DNA from: Tubulanus polymorphus
Taxonomy: Eukaryota; Nemertea; Palaeonemertea; Tubulaniformes; Tubulanidae
Assembly: GCF_964204645.1 (NCBI RefSeq)
Contig: NC_134031.1
Location: 1,736,001 to 1,800,000, forward strand
Direction of reading: 5' to 3'
Length of the DNA stretch: 64,000 nucleotides
Part shown: piece by piece, positions 21,528 to 59,471 of the stretch
Position numbering within the stretch: the stretch's first letter is position 1
Layout: each line of letters opens with the position of its first letter
Position numbers and translations under genes: made by a program
Notes under the pieces: generated by a model
Seen by the model: only the letters and a program-made list of their open reading frames with translations
What the model was told of the DNA's origin: nothing
The model's database searches: none

Positions 21528-23554
21528 CTTCTTCATTCAATCAACGTTCAGCTGCTCCAGCATTCGCTAATGACAATTGTCCCATCTTTAAAATCAAAAC
21601 AGCATTTTTTTTATATTCGCAGGCGGATCAGCGAGAGAGACTCATACTTTGAGTGCTGCTCCTATCAGCTGGGCTTATAATAGTATGTGGTTTATGAAAA
21701 TATCCGATTGCTAAACTAAACCACAGACTGTGGTGGTTACTGATAGTAATACTGATCAGTCTGAGTATAGTGTGAACATACCAGATGTTGTTACAGTCCC
21801 CTATAATAATGGGGACCTTGGCTAGATACACTTGATTAGTTTGTGTAGTAATGTCCATCAGAGCAGGGACAACAACAGATCAAAGGGCCTAAGTTTGGTT
21901 AATTTCATAATCGATGATTAGAATTAGATTGAATAGTAGTAGATCATTAACCGATTAAGGCTAAGCCATTATTGGGAATATGGTCACGGACAAGAACCGT
22001 AATGAGTTAATAGGCCTAATTTACGCACGTGTTTGTTTGAATATTTACGAGTTGCTTACATAGTCAAATACATACCGTAATTTATGCGGCAGTAGAGTAA
22101 CCTTCTCTTGAAAACAATAAAACCATAAAATAAAAAATATTGATTATAGATGGCTTGACGGCCTTGAAAATCATCCCGGATTCTGTGATTCTATAACCGA
22201 ACATAATAGGGTAGCTCCGAGCTACGAGCAATCATCTCGAGCTACTAACATGCCACAACTGGAATCTAACGGTCTACCTGGTTCCTACTAACATCGACTT
22301 CAAAAGCAGATCCCACATAAATAAAGTTTTACCGTTGGTATTCATTTAAAACAAACTAGTGCTTGAGTACTGCATGCTATTTGACCGGAACCCGACCCCC
22401 TTTCGAAGGGTTTGCCCTCCGGGCCTTTAAGTTGGTCCATTGAAATAAAAAGAATATATTTACCACCGGAATATTGAATTTCCCTATTACGTACAATACG
22501 GACAACTGAAGTGCCTAATTCTAATAAACTATGATACGATAAATCCTTCCTAAATCAAGAGTTTAAAAGACATTTAACATTTTTCCGCCAACTCTTGCTT
22601 ATTAATCAATTAGTAAATTAAAGCATGAAATAAATGATTCTCGTTTCACCAAAAATCTTAACTAGATCGGTCAGACTGACCGGTTCTTGAAAACAATTTT
22701 ACACATATATGTGTGCTGTTATATTTGATACAAGGATTAATCCCCGGTTATTGGATTGGTAAACCTGTATGGATGCTGACTGGAGGATGATTAGGTTCGT
22801 ACCCCCGCGGCTCTCGACTTAGAGGCGATTGTTAGGAAATCGGGCACTATCGTTTGATTCCTATATTTCATTACCTGGCTACGAATAACGCACCCAAGAA
22901 TAAAGAAACGGAGTCAGTTCAGGGAAATCCTTTTTGGTGGCAGCAGTCTATGATTTTGATATTGTCGAACATGGCCACACGTAGCTAAATTGAAATGAAG
23001 TCAGTCCAGGAAATTCCAATAAATGGCGGGCGATCTATGATTCTGAGCATCAACAGGAACGGACCAGTTACGGAACCGATCTAAATGTGACTGATTCTGA
23101 TGAAATATCCAGTGTTCACTCTTTTCCTTCCTGTCGCGTTATAGTCATTTACTGTATTTGAAACTATTTTATCTGCGATATTTCTAGCTAAATTATATTT
23201 GCAATGTAAAGTTCTACGGAAAACTTTTACATCGGCAATTTGATTTATAAACCGTCTATTCACATGTCCGTCCTTTTGTGCTGTTATTTCATTTAATTCA
23301 ATTTAATCGGAAATTTCAGTTCAGTTCAGGCTCTTGTTGAATGCGACAGCAAATCCCATTTAGAGAAAATGAACAAGATAAATTGGTAAATCAATGATTT
23401 ATTATAACACAATACTAAGATATCGTATAACATTTAATCTCTATCCAGGTGTTATTTCTCAATTGGTTCAGACAACATTGTCAACTTCGGGCCTATTTTC
23501 AGAAGCTCCATCGATTCTTATCATCTTTAATCCAAACGCAGCCACGCGCGCGCT
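21528..23554. other. intergenic region
   Basis: About 2 kb with no convincing exon on either strand. It should include the zinc-finger promoter (right of 21527) and that of the GPCR gene. No repeat I could recognise apart from short hairpins near 22395-22430. Confidence 0.5.
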
Positions 23555-24535
23555 ATGAATTATTCTCGATGCCCGATTGATGAACTACAAGTTTACAATC
23601 ACTACGTCGTAGTTTATGGTATCGGTACAATCTGTATTTTGGGTATATGTTTGAACATTTTTGGAATTTTCGTTCTTCAAAAAATGACGGAAAGCGGGCA
23701 GGCTATTTATCTGCTCATACTGCTGTCGATAGCCGATACGGTCTATCTTTTAAACACATTTCTCGATAGACCATTGCGTCGACTTATTTTCCAAATGATC
23801 AATGGAGATGAAGTGTTTCGTCGACCGGATTACGGCATGTTTCCAATCTGGAACTGGCTCCGAGTTGCGGGCTACAAGTCAACGGTGAACATTCGTAATT
23901 GGATGGTAGTTCTATCGGCGGTTGTTCGGTGCTTGCACGTTTTATTGCCGTTCTGGTCCAGACGAAACGTCGGTAGAAAGTTTGTTAATTTAAGTATAGC
24001 GATAATTGTGATCGTATCGGCGGGGATTTATATCGATCGTTATTTCGGTGGTCGTATTATCCCGATTAAATGTCCGGGAGATTCTTCGTCGTCGAGCGCG
24101 ACTTATCTTAAATTCGAGAAAGATAAATCAATGGACCTGAGCTCGACGGTGATTTATTTGATAGTTACAGTTAACGCGCCGATGATAATTCTCATGTTGG
24201 CAAACACGATTTTGCTGTGGTCGATCAGTCGTTCTATAAAAAATAGAAAATCCATGGCGTCATCGACGCCGAAAACGGAAACGAATGCCAACACAAAAGC
24301 TACACAACTAGTGATCATAGCTACAGTTATTTATCTCGTCTGCGAATCACCGACAATTATTTCCAGAATTTTCAACTATTTTGTTAAATATAAAATCACA
24401 CCGACGATGTGGAAAATGTTCGTCGTTTTAAACAATTTGACTCCAATCGATTCAGCGATTAATTTTATCATTTATACGATCGCGAGTAGAAGTTTCAGAA
24501 AAACTGCGCGCACGACGCTGTTTGGTGGCAAATAA
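23555..24535 (+). CDS. orphan class A (rhodopsin-like) peptide-type GPCR
   Basis: Single-exon gene, 326 residues, with seven hydrophobic helices at roughly 18-41, 50-72, 110-132, 147-164, 192-220, 248-273 and 287-308. It has a short extracellular N-terminus beginning MNYSRC with one NYS sequon, and a very short C-tail. Helix 7 carries NFIIY where the family has NPxxY, and helix 6 has CESP where CWxP is usual. The DRY position reads VRC after helix 3. I see no cysteine at the helix 3 position that normally pairs with the second extracellular loop (the CPGD loop). The overall pattern is that of invertebrate FMRFamide-receptor-like orphans. The ligand is unknown. It lies upstream of, but is not obviously linked to, the transporter gene. 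Confidence 0.8.
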   Translation: MNYSRCPIDELQVYNHYVVVYGIGTICILGICLNIFGIFVLQKMTESGQAIYLLILLSIADTVYLLNTFLDRPLRRLIFQMINGDEVFRRPDYGMFPIWNWLRVAGYKSTVNIRNWMVVLSAVVRCLHVLLPFWSRRNVGRKFVNLSIAIIVIVSAGIYIDRYFGGRIIPIKCPGDSSSSSATYLKFEKDKSMDLSSTVIYLIVTVNAPMIILMLANTILLWSISRSIKNRKSMASSTPKTETNANTKATQLVIIATVIYLVCESPTIISRIFNYFVKYKITPTMWKMFVVLNNLTPIDSAINFIIYTIASRSFRKTARTTLFGGK

Positions 24536-25668: not shown

Positions 25669-27333
25669 ATGCACGAAGACAAAGAATCTAATCGTTTGGA
25701 ATCTGTGGTAGTTATTTTTGCTGGTTTTGCATCCGCTTTCATCATCGGCGGTAGTTATGTCGATGGTATTCTGGTAGCGGAATGGATGGGATATTTTCAC
25801 CGGGGAAGCAATGAAACAGCCTGGCTGGGTACAGTTATAGTAGGAATTAGTCTCTGCGGAGGTACGAACCTATTTCATCTATAAGTGCTAGCATTTTTAC
25901 CGTGAATATCTACAATCTATTCATCGATATTAAATGGATCGACCTTATTTAGAGGTTATCAGGTCATCAAGCCAAAAGTAGATTATCTAGACTATTGTAG
26001 AGTTAATGAAAATTTTAAATTTCAGCTCCCATTTGCAACTTGTCGGTCAAAAGATTTGGTTTCCGCAAAGTTTTCTTCTTTGCCTCCACGGTCAACGCAA
26101 CTGCAATTGCCATGACGGCATTTGCACGCGATTTCTACGTAGCTATAGCTCTTCGGGTACTCGCCGGTAAACACTCTGATAAATGATTATTTCTACACAA
26201 TCCACCAACCTACTAGGTTCAATCGAAAATCGTATTAAATTTGGAATTTTTCGATCATTATGAAAAAGGATTCTATTTCAGGATGTGGTTTTGCAGTTTT
26301 GATGAATTCTTTGCCTCCATATTTGTTATGCCGATTTCCGAATCACTCGGCGGTGGTTCAAGCTTTTCGCGGTGTTGGTGGATCGGGAGGAACCTTCGTT
26401 TTCCCGTTCATTATCAACTACTGTTTGAATGAGTACGGATGGCGAGGATGCTGTTTGATTATCGGTGGTATCGCATTTCAACAATGCGCTCTCGGACTGG
26501 CGTTTCGTTGCTGGTCCAATGATGAACTACCGCCTCCAGAATCGCGCACAAAACCAAATGAAAACGAAACACGCCGTCTTCATCAACTAGAACTTTTTAA
26601 ACGGAAAACATTTGTAGCATTTGTTTTACATTCTTTTATGTTAAACTTGTCAGTGTCTGCGATCTACGTGCACATCGTATCAGGATCTAAAATTCTACTC
26701 GAAATATCAACAGAACAAGCGAGATTTACGTTTTCCGCGATGGCTATAGCGCTGCTTGTCGGGCGATTTGTCTTCTCGATGATGACCAAACATCCGAAGA
26801 TTGACGCATTCACCCTCTATATAATTCTCAACGCGTTACTCGCAACTCAAGTCGGCGTTATGCCATTTCTGAAGGGCTATACAGCGGCTCTAGCGGCCAG
26901 TGCTTCTATCGGTGTCTTCTTGTCCGCATACGGTTGTCTATATGAACTGGTTCTTTTAAAGCTATTTGGAAGTGAATACTTGTTCATGTCGTTTTCTTAT
27001 AGTATGTTTTTTGGCGGGATCGGATATCTACTTGGTGCACCTGGTGCAGGTAAGGCTATACTCGTTACCCTTCGCAAATTTATTTACGTATCATGAATTG
27101 TAATTCATAAATTGTTTTCAATATGCTTTCATTTCTAGATATTTCGTATTTCAACAGGTTGGTTATACGACAAAACGGGAATGTACGCCTATTCGTTTTA
27201 CTACTGCGCTGGAATGCAGATTTTAAGTGTTGCGATACTGATTCCTGGATGGATGAAATATCATTGTTTTACTCGGCGGCGGAATGAACCTGACGATAAT
27301 CAGCAGACAGTGGATTCTACGAATTTATTATAA
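25669..27333 (+). CDS. SLC16-like monocarboxylate transporter (MFS)
   Basis: Four exons (25669-25861, 26026-26166, 26282-27049, 27158-27333), all phase 1 junctions, give 425 residues. Twelve hydrophobic segments are split by a polar central loop (about 205-225: ESRTKPNENETRR). Family marks are ESVVVIFAGFASAF leading into helix 1, SYVDGILVAEW (MCT helix 1-2 motif), APICNLSVKRFGFRKVFF (helix 2-3), GVGGSGGTFVFP, YGWRGCCLIIGG and GWLYDKTGMYAYSFYYCAG at helix 11-12. The family moves monocarboxylates or related small acids across the plasma membrane; substrate cannot be inferred. The start is uncertain: the frame remains open upstream of the chosen ATG. The C-tail is short. Confidence 0.85.
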
Positions 27334-27957: not shown

Positions 27958-30900
27958 ATGAATGCATCGTGGGGGGTAATATTACTCCTGACAGTTGTAG
28001 CTACGGCTTCGGTAAGCATTATTCTATGCAAAATTCAACAACGTCAACTAAAAAATAAACATCTTTTTTCTTTCGTTTTCACATTTGTTTTGATATTTCA
28101 GGTAAACTCACTCGGCAGCAGTGACGTCACTGGTGATGATGATTTTTTTGACACGAATGACATAAAGAAAGTTCATGTTGTTTTTATGAATCATCTCGGT
28201 AAATATTACTTAGAAAACCAGTGACAGTCCAACGTCCAGACTATTTACCACCAGAAACCACCCTTCATGCTATTACCAGTAAAAAACCACCCTACTATAG
28301 TCTGTGCCAAACCATCTTTCCTTAGTGTGAATACCAGACGTTGATACAGTTCCCTACGACAGACTAATATTAGAATCTTTCCTCAGCCTGTGGAACTACA
28401 ACAGGTCCTTCAGACAACCTGGAGCCACCCTTCACACCACCTGCTGTCATCTCAGATAATCTTCAATTTAGAAAAAGATCCGAGGTCTGAAGATCATTTT
28501 GACAAGAATTGCTGCTTTCATTTGCCATTTCTGCTGTTATATGTTAAATTGTGTTTATTTCTATTTCAGATGTTGGTTATTCAGTTCCCGGTGGAATCGG
28601 TTTCGCAGCTCAAGTCGTTAATGAATATTTCACTAATTATTTCAAGTTAGCGATGAAATTATCCGAACAGCTTAGAACTGAAGGTTTCGTCGAGCATTTC
28701 ATCTATACGACTCACCCGTGGTTGGTTAGCTTCTATTTGAATTGCCCACCGGGTTTGATCTGGGCCGGTGTTTTAATAAAGGTAATGTCAGCTCATGGCT
28801 TCTATTTAATGATTATATAACTGAAATAAACAAATTCAACTGGCGCGGCTCCAGTTGGTTCTGAGCGCCTCGGCCTCGGACTGTCTGCATCTTGTACCCC
28901 CTTACTGGGTGGCCATTTACCTTGAGATCAGGGAATTATCTTTTCTTTAAGTAATTCAGGAAATAGTCAAGGAATTTTGTTTAGAAAAAATACCAGGAAA
29001 TGTCAGTGAAACTTGTTGAGAAAGTTACCGTCTATGACCTAGAGATCAAGTCAATGAAAACATGCATGACAGGGAATAGTCGGGGGAAAAGCATACATTA
29101 AAGTGGCCTGCACCCTGTCCTCAATAGCTGTCTACAGCTTCGATTGGATATACCTCGTCTAAAACTCTTCATATAGATAGATAGATATTTATTTTTCGTA
29201 AACCGTACATACAATATAATTGATAATCGATACTATTATTATTTTTTTTTCTCATAAATGCATGATGTAGGTTCCGAGGGATACAGTGCGAGCCGAAAGG
29301 CTGTACTTAGAAAATTAAGGCACTGAAACCCTGTGCATAGTGCATTATTGGTGCAATTGTGAACAAAAGAGATATAGTAATAATAATAATGATAATAATA
29401 TTAGTAATGATAATAGTTATGATAACATTAATAATAAGAATAACTACATGAATAATAATAATCATAAAAATCATAGTACAAATTATAGTGACAGTATTCA
29501 GGACAGTGATAACAGTAATAATGTATTTCGTATTGTGTTTACAGTGTCCGAACGCGACTGAGATCTCGACGTTCAAGGCAGCTGTTAAACGAGGTGATAT
29601 CACGTGGCATGCCGGTCCGATGAATATGCAGTTTGAAAATGCTAACGAGTTATTCGTGCAGTTCGGGTTGAATATGAGTAAACAGCTCGACGAGGAATTC
29701 GGAATAAAACGTCAAATACGAGTTGTCAGTCAACGCGACGTTCCAGGTTCGTTACTCAATATACAACTATATACAACTACTTATTACAACGTTAGACATT
29801 ATGATCACAACTTTTCGCTTTTCGATTTTTGCTTTGGTTTTATATTCTTTCACTGATTAGGCTAAAATAGAATGATACCTTGTTTCTCCTAATCGGCCGG
29901 GTCATTTTGTAAGCTACAATGAAATAGGAAATCAGTTCATTTCTTAAGCAGCCGGGTCTTTTATGTTTAGCGTAATAGTGATTTTAAAATGTTCAGGGGT
30001 TAGATAGGCGGCCAGGTCAACATTTAAAGAAACAAGGTATCAATTCATGCCTTAGTTTGCTCAACAGTAGTGTTTACTGTAGAGCAGGGGCCAGTTGCAC
30101 AGTCGTGACTTAAGTCCAAACGTGATCTTAAATCTTAAGACTGGTCTTAAGTCGTTAGATTGGCTATAGAACTAAGTTGGTTTCAGATTGGTCTTAAGTC
30201 ATGACTATGCAACCGGCCCCAGAGTCCTTGTGTTTAGTGTAGAGTAGCTTTAGAACTTCAGATATTGTGCTTTAGCTTAATGTGGTATAATTGTATTAGG
30301 TTTGACTGGAACTACCGTGCCGATATTCGCGAGGAATGGAATCGAAGCTCTGTCAGTCGGAATGAATCCGACCTGTCCACCTGTACAATTTGCCGGCACA
30401 TCCCCGTTTCTGTGGAAATACGACGGACATGAGGTCATGGCTGTCATACACAAAGGTGATGTTATTAATAATCTTTCTATTCAGGTTTGACGGTCGGTAT
30501 GGTACCGAATCTGGTTGAAAATGGCGTGCAGGCGATCTCGGTGGGTATGAATCCGGGCTGCCCGCCGACCGTATTCGCTGGAACATCTCCGTTTATTTGG
30601 AAATACGGAGACCAAGAAATAATCGCGGCTATTCACAAAGGTGACAGTATCATACTGCATACTCATACCTCACTACTCGAATCCTTCAATAAGGACCTGA
30701 ATTATCAACATTTGAAGATTTTTACCAAAATCTTTATATTTTGGATAAGTCCTATGTAGTACAAAGTGATTCCTTATTAGCAGGGGATCCACAGATTCAA
30801 GACAATAAAACTGTTGACATCTTTCTCAAGTTTTGACATTTTCTCCTCGAAAAATCCAATAGAACCCTGAATAGAATGAGGAATTATTGTTGGAGCAATC

Positions 30901-33900
30901 AAGGATTCAGACAGGAGCATGTGTTGCAGTTTTAGTAGAACTGACTGTTATGTATTTCAGGTGGATATCCTCAACCCGCTGGTAAATACCCATCACAACC
31001 TGGTGGAATCAGTGTGAAAGATTGTCATTATCTGAAAGGATTTTCTGAAGCTTTGTGTTTCGCATTCAGAGTTGATAACACCGGACCTCCCGTAAACGTT
31101 GCTGTAAGTGAACGTGTGATCAGTTCTAAATCCTGAACATTTTATTATCTTATTTCAGCCACTTTGGATCCGTTTTGAAAATTTGTTTTATGATAATGAT
31201 GAATAATGATAATATCGTAATTATTTATTGATTATACATTATATATTGATTATACATTATACACGTATATTGATAATATATTATATCTGAAGAACGCTTT
31301 ACATACAGAACAATCTCACAACAATTTAATCCAGATAAGATTGACACACTCAGTAGATATGAAATTGTGTTTAGTAAATCCCATGCTAATAAGAAATCTG
31401 CACTTTTGTATGCTTTATATGTTATGACATGAATATTCGAAATACATTACGTGTATTGGTGTTCCCCATGATGAAATCGTGGCTGCTGAAGTAGAGAGGC
31501 TGTCGATCCCCCCAAAAAATATAGAAAATTTAAGCTTGATTTACTGTAGGGGCCTGATCTTCTATTTTTGACAGTAGCTCAATATATTTCAAATCAAAGC
31601 AATCATCAGCTTTGATAGAATACTAAAATCCACTCTGCTAAAGGCAGCGGATATTGTATAAGGGGTGGCTGATTCTCAAAGGGGTGGATGTAAAAATGAA
31701 AAGGTGGCCGCCCCTTTAAAACCTGTTGTGGAGAACACAGTGTATAAGAATATATGAGGTGAACAATAGATGGCAGTACTGTTAATTCTATGTAATGAAT
31801 ATGAGAAATATAATATTGTAGGATGTTTTACATTACTACGAGATTCTCCGAGCTGAATTCCGTCAAGCGAAACTCGTCGCGTCGACGTTCGATAATTTCT
31901 TCGAGGCGTTGCTTCCGTTTAAATCGAAACTGCCGGTAGCGACGCAGGAGATCGGCGACACGTGGATTCAGGGCATCGCGAGCGATCCGAAAAAACTCGC
32001 CGAATACCGAGCTGTGATGAGAGTGTTGGATAATTGTATTAACACAGGTAGATATATATATATCACCATTCCAGTTCCCCTCAACTGAACCTGGGGCTAA
32101 GATAGCCGGTTCAAATTCGAGGTTACTTTCTTCCCAATTAAGGATGGAGAAAGTAGAGAGGAATCTTCAAGCACAACACTGCCGCCGCCTGGATTCGAAT
32201 CCATGAACACTGGATTGATGAGAAACCAGTACATGAAAGCCTAATGGCTTGAACCACTCAGCCACTGTACCTTACTGAGAGTAGATCCTCAACTTTGATA
32301 ACCAATTCCTGGCCAGTTTTACCCACACCTTGTTTTTTAAGTCAAAACTCTTGAATTTATTCTAGAAATCGCTGTTCATCATCAATGATTCAATAGTAAA
32401 GATACCTATTAGATTCATTAATAATTCTGTTTCACTCCCCTTGTTCTGTTAGCGCTCTTCGCATACAAAACATGCTCACATCAAGGTCAAACAAACAACA
32501 GCTCACGTGTGTTCAGATGAAAGTCAGTTTGATGTAATATTTATTGCAGGAATGTGTTTGAGTAGCGATCCGATAATTCGAAACGCAGTACGGTTTCTGA
32601 TTAAACCCGGTGAGCACACGTACGGTTTATCGAGCGTCGCTGACTACAAGAATTACCAGAATGCAGCGTTTGAGAAAGTTCGCACGGGTACGTTCTGAGT
32701 CTCTGTTTATCACTGCAGTTCTCTCTAGCAGATGGTTTTAGTGCCAAAAAAAAACTCCCAATAGACTCCTCATCTTGATCCGAAGCCGGACTATAAAATT
32801 TTATCCCTTCGATGGACGTATTGAGATCTATCTTCTGGAACCAAGTTTGTTACTTTTAGAAGATATTTCTCTGGTGAGAGACAATGGTACATTGACAAAT
32901 GAAACAAGTCAATGAGTTCACTCTCTCCAGATATAGAACTTTTTACAATAGATTTTAATTGTTTAGTGCAATGAATACGCCTAGTAGTTGATAAATGATA
33001 ATTATGAGCCCGAGACTAATATAGTGCTAAATCCAGCCAGGCAACTCTATGACACAAGTTGTTTCCTATTGATAAATGATATAACAGAAAGGGTGATGAT
33101 AATAAAAAGGCATTTTTTCATTCTAGTCTCTTTGATGTTTTGGAATTTATATATTTTCATTGTTTTGATTAGGTGTGAACTATCAGCACTGTCAGACCGC
33201 GTGGTACGAACAGAGAGAAATGCTGTATACAGGAATTAAACTACTTCAAGGTCATCCAGTTTACCCCTCAGTAGTAGATGAACTCAGACGCTTGGACGCT
33301 AGCCTGCCGGATCTTACCGGTAATTTAAATATTGAAATATTTCAGATATTGTTCTAAATTTGATGTGATAGTTGTAGTATAAATAGAATAATGGACTGCA
33401 CTGCACTCGGTAGCGTTTGAACTGATGTAAATATTGAGTTGAAAATCAAGAAGTTTGAAGGTTTTTCCAAATAAATCTTAGTAAAACTTGAGCAATAAGT
33501 TAACCGAGTTGACCAGTACTGGTTAAGGAGTCTATTTTTGTTACGCATAATGTTAAATTGTTTGATTATTTACAGATTATCGAAGGGTCTCGGATATTTC
33601 TACATTCAAATGTCCGAGTGGATTAATCCTGGGATTCAACGCACGTGATGGTTCTATTAATAGAATGCTCGACCCGATCAACAAAGTAAGCAATTTCGTA
33701 ACAAATGGCAGAATTTTCTGAATTCAAATTAATCTTTGCCTTAATCAGTGCCGGTTCACTTGGGTTTGGCTCTAAATCAGTGCATTAACGTTTTTGTTTT
33801 TTGATTAGGTAAATTGGGCGTCAGATGAACACAAATTGATGAAGTTTGTTTATAAAACGTACAACGAGACCGATTTTGTTTATATGAGGGCGCATTACGA

Positions 33901-35664
33901 TCTGGGCACGTGGGATCCTGGGTACGGTAAACCGAATTCAACATTGAACGCTCATCCTGAAAGTCGTCTGTGGTACAGTCATGTTACAGATGCCTACATC
34001 AATATCTGTAAGTGCCGCAGATTCACCGATGCTTTCGATATACCGGTACGTTGTATCCTCAAAATTGATAAAATTTCGTGTATTATTTCAGATGAACCGT
34101 GTAATGTGATAATCAGATCAGAGATGGATTTGGAATGGACGTACAGTTATTACGGAGCTCCTAAAGCTATTTGGACGCGTTATAATGCTTTGAAAACTGG
34201 AGGTGAGTATTGTCTGATTGATGGAACTCATTCATCGAGATCCAATTCCGCAGTTCTGAACCTAATTCCGCAGTCTTGGACCTAGTTTCACAGTTTTGAG
34301 CCCAGTTCCATAGTTCTGAGCCTAGTTGCACAGACTTGGATTTAGTTCCGCAGTTCTGAGCCCAGTTCACAGTTCTGAACCAAGTTCCACAGTACTGGAT
34401 CTAGTTCCACTCATCTGGATTCAGTTCCACAGTTTCTGAAACCGGTCTCACAATACTATATTCAGTTTGATCCATTGCTCTTGAGAATTTAATTCAAGTA
34501 TTTAAACTCGAATCAATGGAACTGAATCCTGAGAGATTAAAATCTGATAATTACAACCGAAATGTTATTAAAGTTGTTATTCATATCGTAGAGTTGGAAG
34601 TGGAATACATATTTGAGGATAAAACCCCGACTCGTTTAGCTGAGAGTTTATTCGTCGAAGTAAATCCGGCTCCGCAGACAAATCATCGCTGGTCAATTAC
34701 CAAACTAGGATCGATCATTGACCCAATGAACGTCATGTTAAACGGAAGTCAATTACAACACGGTAAATAATTTAGATGAAAGAGAATTTTATTGATTTAG
34801 TTCATGGTTGACAATAATTGGGGGGTCAAATGAGAGAGGTGCAGTAGCTGACTGTAACTGGGGGTCTAGTTAGAGAGGTGCAGTGGCTGAGTGTAACTGG
34901 GGGTCTAGTGATGCATGGCTTCAAATCCTACTGTAGTTTCTCGATGGAAGGTCTTCTTCTGGTCCGTCTCAACTTAATCAGAAAAAGAAATCTCGCACCT
35001 GCTAATAATGCCCTGTGTGGTGGGTGCTCTGCGGGTTGATTTGAAAAAATCCTCAAACATGCTACAACGAAACCTTGTTACAAGAAACTTCTGCGGTCGA
35101 CAAAATACATTCGTTGTAACTGATAGTTCGGAATTGTGCTATTAGGGACGAAATTTGAATTTTGTGATAATGGATGAATTGTGATTTCTGAGGTGGTTGT
35201 AACGAGGTTCCGCTGTAATGATAGCCTCCTCGGTCGAGGGATGTAAAAAATAAAAGTGTAAAATTGCTGTATTTTCAGCCACTGATCGCGGAGTCGCCTA
35301 CACCGACACAAAGCAGACCGGAATTTATATAGAAACGTTAGATTTATCTATAGTTTCACCGATTACTACTCAACAGAACGCGACGTCGATTCCGGCACCA
35401 CTCTGGCCGATTAAAGATCTCACCGGAATGGCGTTCAATTTCTACAATAACGTGTGGAATACAAACTATATATTCTGGTATCCGTATCGTTATCAGGACG
35501 CCAGTTTCAAGGCGAGATTTCTCGTGTCATTCCGTCAGCCGAAATCCTGGCCGAAACGACGACGACAATCCAAACCGCAATCACGTAAAAATCATTCCGA
35601 TAATAACGATTCCGTCCTGCGTTGGGTTTCGTTGAAGAAAGCGAAGTCTGTCGTCGGCGCGTAA
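27958..35664 (+). CDS. secreted GH38-like (DUF5054) hydrolase with alternative exons
   Basis: Fourteen coding exons give 783 residues: 27958-28011, 28102-28198, 28570-28781, 29545-29746, then either 30300-30455 or 30485-30640, 30961-31103, 31822-32047, 32550-32687, 33173-33319, 33576-33685, 33809-34007, 34092-34202, 34592-34762 and 35279-35664. A signal peptide (GVILLLTVVATAS) is followed by an acidic stretch. Then comes VHVVFMNHLDVGYS, which keeps the HxD metal-ligand pattern of GH38 alpha-mannosidases. RDVPG (about 185-189) sits where GH38 has the nucleophile motif DPFGH. Several N-glycosylation sequons fit secretion. The tail is basic (KRRRQSKPQSRKNHS). I assign it to the DUF5054 family from memory of the motifs. 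Glycosidase activity is inference, since the rest of the GH38 site is not conserved. Introns hold a SINE, MITEs and tandem repeats. Confidence 0.85.
29160..29525. repeat. AT-rich microsatellite tract in hydrolase intron 3
   Basis: A short TAGA run (about 29175-29187) is followed by an irregular (AAT/GATAAT)n region from about 29375 to 29525 that ends 20 bp before exon 4. Low complexity; apparent open frames across it are artefacts. Confidence 0.7.
29857..30054 (+). mobile_element. GGCCGGGTC-box MITE, copy 2
   Basis: TTAGGCTAAAATAGAATGAT then ACCTTGTTTCTCC on the left; AAACAAGGTATCAATTCATGCC on the right. Two internal boxes are intact or nearly so and the third reads GGCCAGGTC. Lies in hydrolase intron 4, just before the alternative exon pair. 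Confidence 0.7.
30086..30220. repeat. foldback element in hydrolase intron 4
   Basis: GGGGCCAGTTGCACAGTC at the left and GACTATGCAACCGGCCCC at the right pair. The interior GACTTAAG and CTTAAGTC blocks pair too. It sits about 80 bp upstream of alternative exon 5a, so a stem-loop could form next to its acceptor. Confidence 0.75.
30300..30455 (+). other. alternative exon 5a of the hydrolase gene
   Basis: 156 nt, phase 1 at both ends, encoding GLTGTTVPIFARNGIEALSV and onward to IHKG. Acceptor TTGTATTAG, donor AAAG|GTGATG. Its partner 5b begins 30 nt later with the same length and phases. Reading through the gap gives a stop codon (GTT TGA). Confidence 0.85.
30485..30640 (+). other. alternative exon 5b of the hydrolase gene
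   Basis: 156 nt, phase 1 at both ends, encoding GLTVGMVPNLVENGVQAISV and onward to IHKG. Acceptor TTTCTATTCAG, donor AAAG|GTGACA. About 33 of 53 residues are identical to exon 5a. SVGMNP, CPP, FAGTSPF and WKY are kept in both, while the first 15 residues differ most. Confidence 0.85.
32053..32275 (-). mobile_element. tRNA-derived SINE in hydrolase intron 7
   Basis: On the minus strand the head reads GGTACAGTGGCTGAGTGG, with an A box (TGGCTGAGTGG). About 50 nt later comes GGATTCGAATCC (B box). Spacing and sequence resemble a Ser/Leu-type tRNA. A tRNA-unrelated body follows, ending in an (AT)n tail at 32053-32062 beside exon 7. A functional tRNA is unlikely because no proper acceptor stem closes. 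Confidence 0.7.
34230..34445. repeat. tandem array of foldback terminal motif
   Basis: About ten imperfect units of 20-24 bp resembling CCTAGTTCCACAGTTCTGAG, in hydrolase intron 12. The unit equals the terminal motif of the dispersed foldback family (CCAGTTCCACAGTT). Confidence 0.75.
35054..35217. mobile_element. pogo-like foldback in hydrolase intron 13
   Basis: Left end TACAACGAAACCTTGTTACA pairs with TGTAACGAGGTTCCGCTGTA at the right, a pogo/Tigger-like style of terminal repeat. The interior is AT-rich and non-coding. Confidence 0.65.
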
Positions 35665-51900: not shown

Positions 51901-54900
51901 TCAACTAGAGTTTTATTCAATACCATATTTTTCTTTCGTCCTCTTTGATCGTCAATGGCGTTTTCGCGATAAATCATGGCTCGTCATCAATTCCAGTCAG
52001 AAATTATTCATTCCACCTAAGAATGAAACCACGCACGGTCGGTTGCGCAGTCAGACGTCCTTTAAAGAATTAAAATCTTTTTATGTAAGAGTACAATTAA
52101 AAATTTCATCTAGAACTTTAAGCAAAATTCAAAACAAGGGTATCTCTCGTATTATAATATAGAGAGAAATCTCAAAATGATAACAAAAAACAGTCCGAAA
52201 ATGTTACTGGAGCTAGTGTAGTTTATTTTTCGTTTCGACTATATTCTAATAGTCATCCTTAGGAATACTGAGAAATATTCCCAGTATTCCTGAAGATGAC
52301 TATCAGAATATAGTCGAAACGTTGGATAAACTACCAGCTCAAGGAATACAGTATTCCTGAAGATGACTATCAGAATATAGTCGAAACATTGAATAAACTA
52401 CCAGCTCAAGGAATACAGTATTCCTGAAGATGACTATCAGAATATAGTCGAAACATTGAATAAACTACCAGCTCAAGGAATACAGTATTCCTGAAGATGA
52501 CTATCAGAATATAGTCGAAACATTGAATAAACTACCAGCTCAAGGAATACAGTATTCCTGAAGATGACTATCAGGATTAAGTCGAAACGTTGGATAAACT
52601 ACCAGCTCAAGGAATACAGTATTCCTGAAGATGACTATTAGAATGTGTCGAAACGTTTGATAAACTACACTAGCTCCGGTAACATTTCCGGACTGTTTTT
52701 CGGTAGTATCGCGGGATTCTCTCTACATCATCGTCACGGATCCATAGTGTTTTATCAATCGTGTTTATCGTATGTGAATCTTTTTCCACAGGCGTTGTAT
52801 GAAAACATTCAAATTTATAAACAAAAACAGTTTCCCAATATTTAGGTTTTCACCCTCAGCATCAAAATATTCGCGCATACTGATGGCGTGGCACAATGTG
52901 TATCACAAACATACACCTTTCATTTCATTCAATTCTATGCGAGCACATAAACATATTTTGTTTTCGTAATGAGAGGGTTAATACTGAGGGTAGTGTATGA
53001 TTCAGTAGTTGACTTATTAGTGTTGATTGTAATTCTCCTACGAGCTGATACGGTATATAAGCGATTCCAATCTCAATTTGACGACGATTTGAAAATCATC
53101 GGTAGATTTAACTCGTTTTCTGAACTCCGAGATGCGAGTAAACACGTCTGATTTGTTGATTTGATAATATACTGTCGCCATGTCGCAGAGTTGGCCAGGT
53201 ACTTTCCTACAAATCGTATTAAACGCTATCAGCCGATGTAGATAGACTCTACTGCGGTTACCTGATCGGTACGAGTATCCTGAACACTCAATTCACAACT
53301 TAGAAATGTATCAATATAGATTTGAAGCATTTTCTGTGACTTGAATGAAGAAAACTTGAATTTCAAAATCACCAGTTATATTCAGCTCCTCAGTGATTAT
53401 CGTTGAAGTGAAATTTATTTTTGAATTCTTTGCAGATTTCGATATTGTTTTTTTTTTGGATAGGAAGATTTTCGATTGTGAAGCCACGTAGAAAGACACC
53501 AGTGCGGGAACTGTATCGTCCCTAGAGTGAAATCAGCTCGCGTCGTTTTAGAACACGAGGCGACACTCAGAAACTTACGCTCTACAGTAATATCCCCTTG
53601 GCATACACTGTAAATCCTCTCCGTCAATTTTTCTAGTTGAAAGTTTCAAAACTTTTTTCCAAATATTAGTTATGACGAGCTCTTTGTGATTTCTACGTCA
53701 AAAGCGGGTTTCAGAATAGGGGGAGGGGGGGGAGCAGGAGGAATGGTCAAAACATTTTAGGTCTCGTATATTCACTTCTCAATGTATCTTCAAACAAAAA
53801 ACTATGATCACACGAGTTTATGAAGCGTCTTATTAATATTTGCGTGGGCGTAAAAATCCAAAAATACGTCCAAAAAAGACGAAAGTTCTAGTAAAAGAAA
53901 ATATTATCGAGAAACGTTTCGACATGTGTCGAAACTGAGTTAGTTATGAAGGTCAATGAAAGTGGTGGACGCGGTCTGTGGAACGCGATTAGCTGGATGC
54001 GATGGACGTGATGTAAACTAGCTAACTTGCATCCATCACCAGAACGTGAGCATAAAGACGCAACGATGCCAATTATTGTCGTGTATCCCTCACTCAGGAT
54101 GCGGGAGACTCTTTGATGGAGATCTGAACAGGCGGCAAAAAGTGATAATCTCGAAAGTTATCTGTTCTGATCGTGCGCTCTGAAGGAAACTCTTCGTCCG
54201 TTGATGTTTCGAGTGCGTACTACTCAGTTTTAACGCGGTATATTAGACGTGAAGATGGAAGAAGACCTGGTTTCTTTCTCCCGGCGGTCTCTCTTTTTCG
54301 ACGAGAGATTTCTTAACTGAAATTGCACTACAAATCGTTTTATGGAGAGGATATACGTTATGATGTCTGTCTGAATATAATGATGAAAACAACAGAACAA
54401 CTGTTTCTGTATTTCGTGTGCACTCGGGCGTCTAATATATCACAGTCCGCACTTCTTTTGAACTAACATAAGTGAAAATGAGTTAGGTTTTTGAATTCCC
54501 TGGCGTGGTGGCCAGTAAGTAACCTATATTTACCGGTAACGCGCTCGTCAACACCAGAACCAACGCTCAGCTATACGATTACCATAAATCAGGGATCTTG
54601 CGTGAGCCCTTGCATAAATCATGTAAATCAACTTCAAATAACTGGTTGTCAACTTGTATCGATGTGCAGTTAATGTCATCGTCATGATGAAAAATAAAAC
54701 TTCAAGCACTCTGAATTATGACCACAGCAATTCGTGCCCTAAACACCGAAAGTTAGTTGCTGTTAGTGTTAAACGATATTATAGTTTGTCTCGTCGTCTT
54801 GTACTTGACCGCGCTTCTCTTTGAGAATTGAAAACAACTTTGTTTTCACTCGGTTTGCATTTACAATCGACAACAATTAGTCACGATAAAACTTATGACT

Positions 54901-58380: not shown

Positions 58381-59471
<1,091 letters not shown>

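Follow-up and report, generated by a model that had tools for sequence, protein, structure and literature searches.

The window analysed here, a 64,000-nucleotide stretch of the Tubulanus polymorphus genome, carries on its forward strand a DUF5054 (GH38-like) gene (27958..35664) with 14 exon slots, whose splice-consistent open frame predicts isoforms of 783 amino acids. An imperfect 20/60-nt tandem repeat lies in one of its introns (34242-34440). The same window contains a single open frame for an Srw-type 7TM chemoreceptor at 23531-24532 (PF10324, E = 9e-21), an MFS transporter frame at 26239-27093 (PF07690, E = 2.6e-12), a 67-nt tandem repeat of 5.8 copies with 95% matches at 52282-52668, and a perfect AT dinucleotide run of about 146 units at 59176-59468.

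Exon 4 of the DUF5054 gene (29545..29746, forward strand), which ends in ...QRDVP/G, is followed by two versions of exon 5 and by a common downstream exon 6 (30961..31103, forward strand; GGYPQPAG...). Exons 5a (30300..30455) and 5b (30485..30640), both on the forward strand, each measure 156 nt, run from phase 1 to phase 1, encode residues 189-240, and are preceded by AG and followed by GT; they are thus neighbouring homologues that agree in length and phase, and each has splice sites of its own. Between them lies a gap of 29 nt (30456..30484, forward strand), GTGATGTTATTAATAATCTTTCTATTCAG, which starts with the 5a donor GTGATG and ends in TTCAG with the acceptor AG of 5b. Read by eye, without a tool score, the gap offers an adenine at 30468 or 30471 on the forward strand as candidate branch point, and the pyrimidine tract of the gap occupies 30472-30482 on that strand. 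The two exons share 32 of 52 amino acids (61.5%) and 99 of 156 nucleotides, leaving 20 differing residues between the isoforms, all within the exchanged segment. The coordinates, the equal length of 156 nt, the equal phase, the protein identity of about 62% and the 29-nt GT/AG gap given by the first-pass annotation were all reproduced. The immediate stop that it had expected on retention of the gap was not found: retention adds 11 residues (GDVINNLSIQV), and a TGA is met only at the start of 5b.

The 57 nucleotide differences between 5a and 5b fall on codon positions 1, 2 and 3 in the proportion 11/12/34. When 57 differences were placed at random on 5a 20,000 times, none of the placements reached at least 34 third-position changes and none retained 32 identical residues. 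The pattern is therefore that of a genuine duplicate exon maintained by selection.

The predicted protein matched Pfam PF16477 (DUF5054) over residues 340-594 (E = 1.4e-29; 104.4 bits against a cut-off of 37.6), and the residues of exon 5 lie N-terminal to this match. The GH38 model PF01074 gave no match to the window protein at E<=1. A profile built from the window protein and ten bacterial DUF5054 proteins aligned with the N-terminal domains of the genome's GH38 proteins with a probability of 91% (E = 1.1e-6), a single comparison made with shallow alignments in which one GH38 row is partly non-exon sequence. In this alignment, HLD is matched with HTD, and the RDVPG Asp sits opposite that of DPFG. 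The genome's GH38 fragment was in turn aligned, over its full length of 326 residues, with 1hty, the Golgi alpha-mannosidase II of Drosophila, for which Asp204 is reported as the nucleophile and His90, Asp92 and His471 as Zn-coordinating residues (PMC13204073). The earlier placement of the catalytic residue at RDVPG, at the end of exon 4, is thus borne out, since the Asp of that motif is matched to the GH38 nucleophile by way of the genome's GH38 sequences and 1hty; exon 5 begins three residues past this Asp. In both window isoforms the HLD His and Asp, the DVPG Asp and the EHT His are retained. The EHT motif is presumably the counterpart of GH38 His471. On the evidence of these alignments, the N-terminal half of the DUF5054 gene is a distant relative of the GH38 alpha-mannosidases. 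It resembles Golgi alpha-mannosidase II (1hty) in the N-terminal profile match and in the aligned HxD and nucleophile Asp, but it belongs to DUF5054, lacks a PF01074 match, and has Leu in place of His/Tyr after DxxG. Searches of the PDB by sequence or profile returned no meaningful relative with a solved structure, and no paper naming DUF5054 was found in the open-access literature searched. The GH38 genes on contigs C1, C4 and C12 are multi-exon, and a Golgi-type GH38 gene with a single open frame of 1,108 amino acids is located at 28046000-28055000 of C1.

Relatives of the gene occur in bacteria. Using tblastn, 25 plasmid records with relatives of the N-terminal region were recovered, with 27.7-29.7% identity among the 20 listed, and an alignment-guided scan of bacterial genomes returned 452 relatives, of which 80, mostly alphaproteobacterial as judged by their titles, were kept. 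A single-protein scan of genome contigs and a tblastn search of viral contigs yielded no relatives. All 80 kept proteins and five plasmid loci (85 in total) entered the table of exon-5 sites, and 28 of the 80 were aligned. H13, D15, D131 and H308 (HLD, the DVPG Asp and the EHT His) were invariant in 28/28 aligned relatives. THLD and EHT occurred in all 85 proteins; DVPG did too (85/85), a count that is circular because the frames were chosen for containing DVPG.

Within the genome (267.8 Mb, 77 contigs), three paralogs were located, at 16.13 Mb of C7, 3.67 Mb of C6 and 2.18 Mb of C2. HLD, D-V/I-PG and EHT are present in all three, the Asp after HL in the C6 paralog being read on inspection. 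Each paralog has one exon-5 region, found by search in C7 and C2 and by reading the DNA in C6; because the genome search missed the C6 exon, a very diverged further copy could have been missed as well. Exon 5 of the C7 paralog is exactly 156 nt long, in the same phase, with flanking introns of 89 and 191 nt, and in the C2 paralog exon 5 is fused with everything downstream. The latter paralog (C2:2180000-2188000) has one open frame of 571 amino acids past the exon 4/5 boundary, with the boundary intron kept; this fused frame could reflect either partial retroposition or intron loss.

In a tree of exon-5 peptides (14 short rows, 50 columns), 5a and 5b grouped as sisters with support of 99/97, and the C7 paralog joined them next (95/94). 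The 5a branch (0.55) has about double the length of the 5b branch (0.28). Identity to the closest paralog amounts to 25 of 52 residues for 5a and 30 of 52 for 5b, and this paralog sides with 5b against 5a at eight sites and with 5a against 5b at three. Taken together, the tree and the agreement with the paralog make it most likely that exon 5 was duplicated within the gene after its divergence from the C7 paralog, with 5b as the more conservative copy. At residues 192-194, which sit just past the nucleophile loop, 5a alone reads GTT, 5b reads VGM, and the paralogs read KAV or QAV; the 85 bacterial proteins carry L (71 of them), G (84) and M or I (84) there.

Third codon positions of 5a and 5b differ at 34 of 52 sites, which is near saturation (JC distance about 1.54), and first and second positions differ at 23 of 104. 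Counted at first and second positions, 5a has 15 changes and 5b has 7. When 5a was simulated as neutral for half of the third-position distance, none of 5,000 simulations matched the data; neutrality for a quarter of the distance fitted in 1.5% of simulations, and for a tenth in 52%. The simulations therefore argue that 5a has been coding for most of its life, and the good fit at a tenth of the distance means that 5a may have been retired recently. As read from the substitution pattern, both copies evidently spent most of their history under selection.

The 29-nt gap stands apart from the other introns sampled in the genome. The remaining introns of the gene have a minimum of 84 nt (12 intervals, one of which is the 1,214-nt interval holding the pair), and those of the DUF5054 paralogs measure about 77 nt and up. 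For the chaperonin family, 25 introns were estimated from family matches at 71-910 nt, ten of them at 71-93; these correspond to 25 neighbouring pairs with a query overlap or gap of <=12 residues, drawn from 51 of 53 match rows, the two rows of an intronless copy on C31 being left out. That copy (C31:7097-8704, reverse strand) gives chaperonin matches across most of the family within a single 575-amino-acid open frame; it may lack introns or may stem from bacterial contamination. One GH38 gene gave an intron estimate of 65 nt that spans 14 unaligned residues. An estimate of 61 nt for intron 2 of the C6 paralog proved on inspection to be 85 nt, and an estimate of -139 in the C7 paralog was meaningless, being the product of a spurious match, which distorted the next value as well. 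Introns of 37-65 nt are on record in humans (PMC4463651), which shows that animals can have very short introns.

Splicing in silico produced open frames for every combination: 783 amino acids for 4-5a-6, 783 for 4-5b-6, 835 for 4-5a-5b-6 and 731 for 4-6. Because double inclusion and skipping both stay in frame, the reading frame cannot enforce exclusivity, and spacing alone could. The argument from spacing made in the first-pass annotation is accordingly stronger than it had been put. The footprints of the U1 and U2 snRNPs would be the basis of competition between a donor and a nearby branch site. In the present case, the candidate branch A lies 12-15 nt from the 5a donor, within a gap of 29 nt, and U1 and U2 should not fit side by side over that distance. 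Published work places the steric threshold between donor and branch point at about 50 nt, with branch points at 25-41 nt in OGDH (PMC7969005), and describes potential steric interference in 57 (9%) of human mutually exclusive clusters (PMC5740500). Were the branch point located inside exon 5a instead, joining of 5a to 5b would be impossible as well.

We consider that 5a and 5b very probably represent an old, real and likely functional mutually exclusive exon pair that arose by tandem duplication and is enforced by spacing. A single 156-nt exon 5 would have been duplicated in tandem to give 5a and 5b, such that the 5a donor and the branch site and pyrimidine tract of 5b came to share the same 29 nt. 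U1 at the 5a donor and U2/U2AF at the 5b branch site would then block each other, no spliceosome would form across the gap, and each transcript would commit to 4-5a-6 or to 4-5b-6, giving two proteins of 783 amino acids. We infer from the genomic sequence the exclusive usage in RNA, the competition between U1 and U2, and any substrate difference between the isoforms. That the two isoforms differ in substrate, as the first-pass annotation had suggested, is possible but falls short of an even chance in our judgement. Somewhat more doubtful still is the fuller proposal, in which the 29 nt would be a bifunctional element where U1 and U2 compete, acting as an autonomous two-state switch that toggles the specificity of a GH38-like glycosidase, and perhaps ranking among the shortest such gaps in animals.

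What could set the choice between the exons was examined at the splice sites and in the flanking introns. With a matrix derived from twelve introns, the donor scored 4.21 for 5a and 0.27 for 5b, the latter being the lowest of 14, and both donors are non-consensus at +5. The acceptors scored 6.88 (5a) and 3.0 (5b); upstream pyrimidines show the opposite order, 11/16 at the 5b acceptor and 7/16 at that of 5a. Scores from a matrix of only 12 introns that are at odds with the pyrimidine count of the acceptors are weak evidence, and the two together are too little for the 5a and 5b sites to be ranked. In intron 5, 11 nt (30866..30876, forward strand) form a perfect complement to 30475-30485 at the 5b acceptor, a match that extends to 15/17 nt. 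Such a complement arose in 1 of 300 shuffles for that pair and in 6 of 300 for the best of eight comparisons. Pairing of 30475-30485 with 30866-30876 could hide 5b in the manner of a selector-type structure, and we treat it as a lead only. The local fold of 30420-30520 is nothing special (z = -0.21).

Intron 4 holds a MITE-like inverted-repeat element (30087..30223, forward strand) with 33-nt inverted arms that are 88% complementary, ending about 76 nt upstream of 5a. This intron also contains a foldback (29873-30042) whose perfect inverted arms, 15 nt each, lie 140 nt apart. A genome-wide search for the MITE gave 2,075 first-look candidates, 40 of which were scored, and the list holds 39 further copies of near full length with 90-93% identity. 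The suggestion that this element influences the choice found no support, given the 90-93% identity of its copies and the age of the exon pair, whose third positions are near saturation, and it was set aside because the element is a dispersed genome-wide repeat.

Several other accounts of the locus were weighed against a spacing-enforced pair. In one of them, one exon, most likely 5b, is constitutive, and 5a is a recently retired copy that stays open but is little or never used. The longer branch of 5a and its fewer residues in common with the closest paralog (25 against 30), its departure to GTT at 192-194, and its pyrimidine-poorer upstream tract all fit this account, but 5a has neither stop nor frameshift, its AG and GT are intact, and both its sites score above those of 5b in the twelve-intron matrix. 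Moreover, the simulations rule out a long neutral history, and 5a keeps G189, T191, P196, G209, N211 and W227, which are constant or nearly so in the family; we regard its recent retirement as unlikely. Inclusion of both exons, with the gap spliced as a real ultrashort intron and an 835-amino-acid protein bearing a repeated segment, would be formally allowed by the in-frame 5a-to-5b splice between a GT and an AG. It appears highly unlikely, because every other intron measured or estimated is much longer than 29 nt and a doubled segment beside the active site would probably not fold. The alignment of 28 bacterial relatives, with 655 columns for a 640-amino-acid protein, has no room for a 52-residue repeat, and each of the three paralogs carries one such segment.

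The same gap, probably too short for removal as an intron, would allow the locus to act as an expression switch, in which an exclusive choice yields protein and retention of the 341-nt unit (5a, gap and 5b) yields a transcript for decay, read-through of the gap meeting the TGA at the start of 5b. This idea leaves the continued coding of 5a unexplained and is compatible with exclusion by spacing rather than opposed to it; we give it a small probability. An equally small one attaches to the view that competing RNA structure (docking and selector sites) governs both choice and exclusion, with spacing secondary. In its favour is the intron-5 site that is perfectly complementary to the acceptor of 5b, but the minimum-energy fold of 30440-30960 lacks this pairing, the other seven site-by-intron comparisons were unremarkable, and intron 4, which folds strongly (z = -6.26), contains the dispersed repeat and the foldback in that stretch.

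A spacing-enforced 5a/5b pair would be of a known kind, namely mutually exclusive exons kept apart by spacing; it differs in its very compact gap and in the gene family. The classic case of steric exclusion is alpha-tropomyosin exons 2 and 3, where the branch point lies near the upstream donor; it differs in having a longer intervening intron and in belonging to a muscle protein. Exons 4a and 4b of vertebrate OGDH are likewise duplicated, mutually exclusive enzyme exons with branch points under the proposed steric threshold. In that gene the stretch from donor to branch point already takes up 25-41 nt, so that the intron is longer than the whole 29-nt gap, and the work described used minigenes, whereas the 5a/5b case is known from sequence (PMC7969005). 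In coq-2 of helminths, annelids and molluscs, homologous exons 6a and 6e also swap a segment near the active site, and the reported change of product is a precedent for altered substrate choice; that enzyme is a polyprenyltransferase and its exon swap is backed by genetic and RNA evidence (PMC7434440). The open-access literature searched contained no paper that brings the shortest introns together with mutually exclusive exons, and the one paper listed for such exons at the active site of a glycoside hydrolase concerned salt tolerance in dandelion.

The locus would provide a natural test of the limits of steric exclusion, since the products with one, both or neither of the exons all keep the frame, which leaves only spacing to enforce the choice. 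The pair also offers two predicted isoforms of an unstudied GH38-like family that is present in this animal and in bacteria, and, as the exchanged residues adjoin the predicted catalytic site, comparing the isoforms could reveal what the DUF5054 family acts on.
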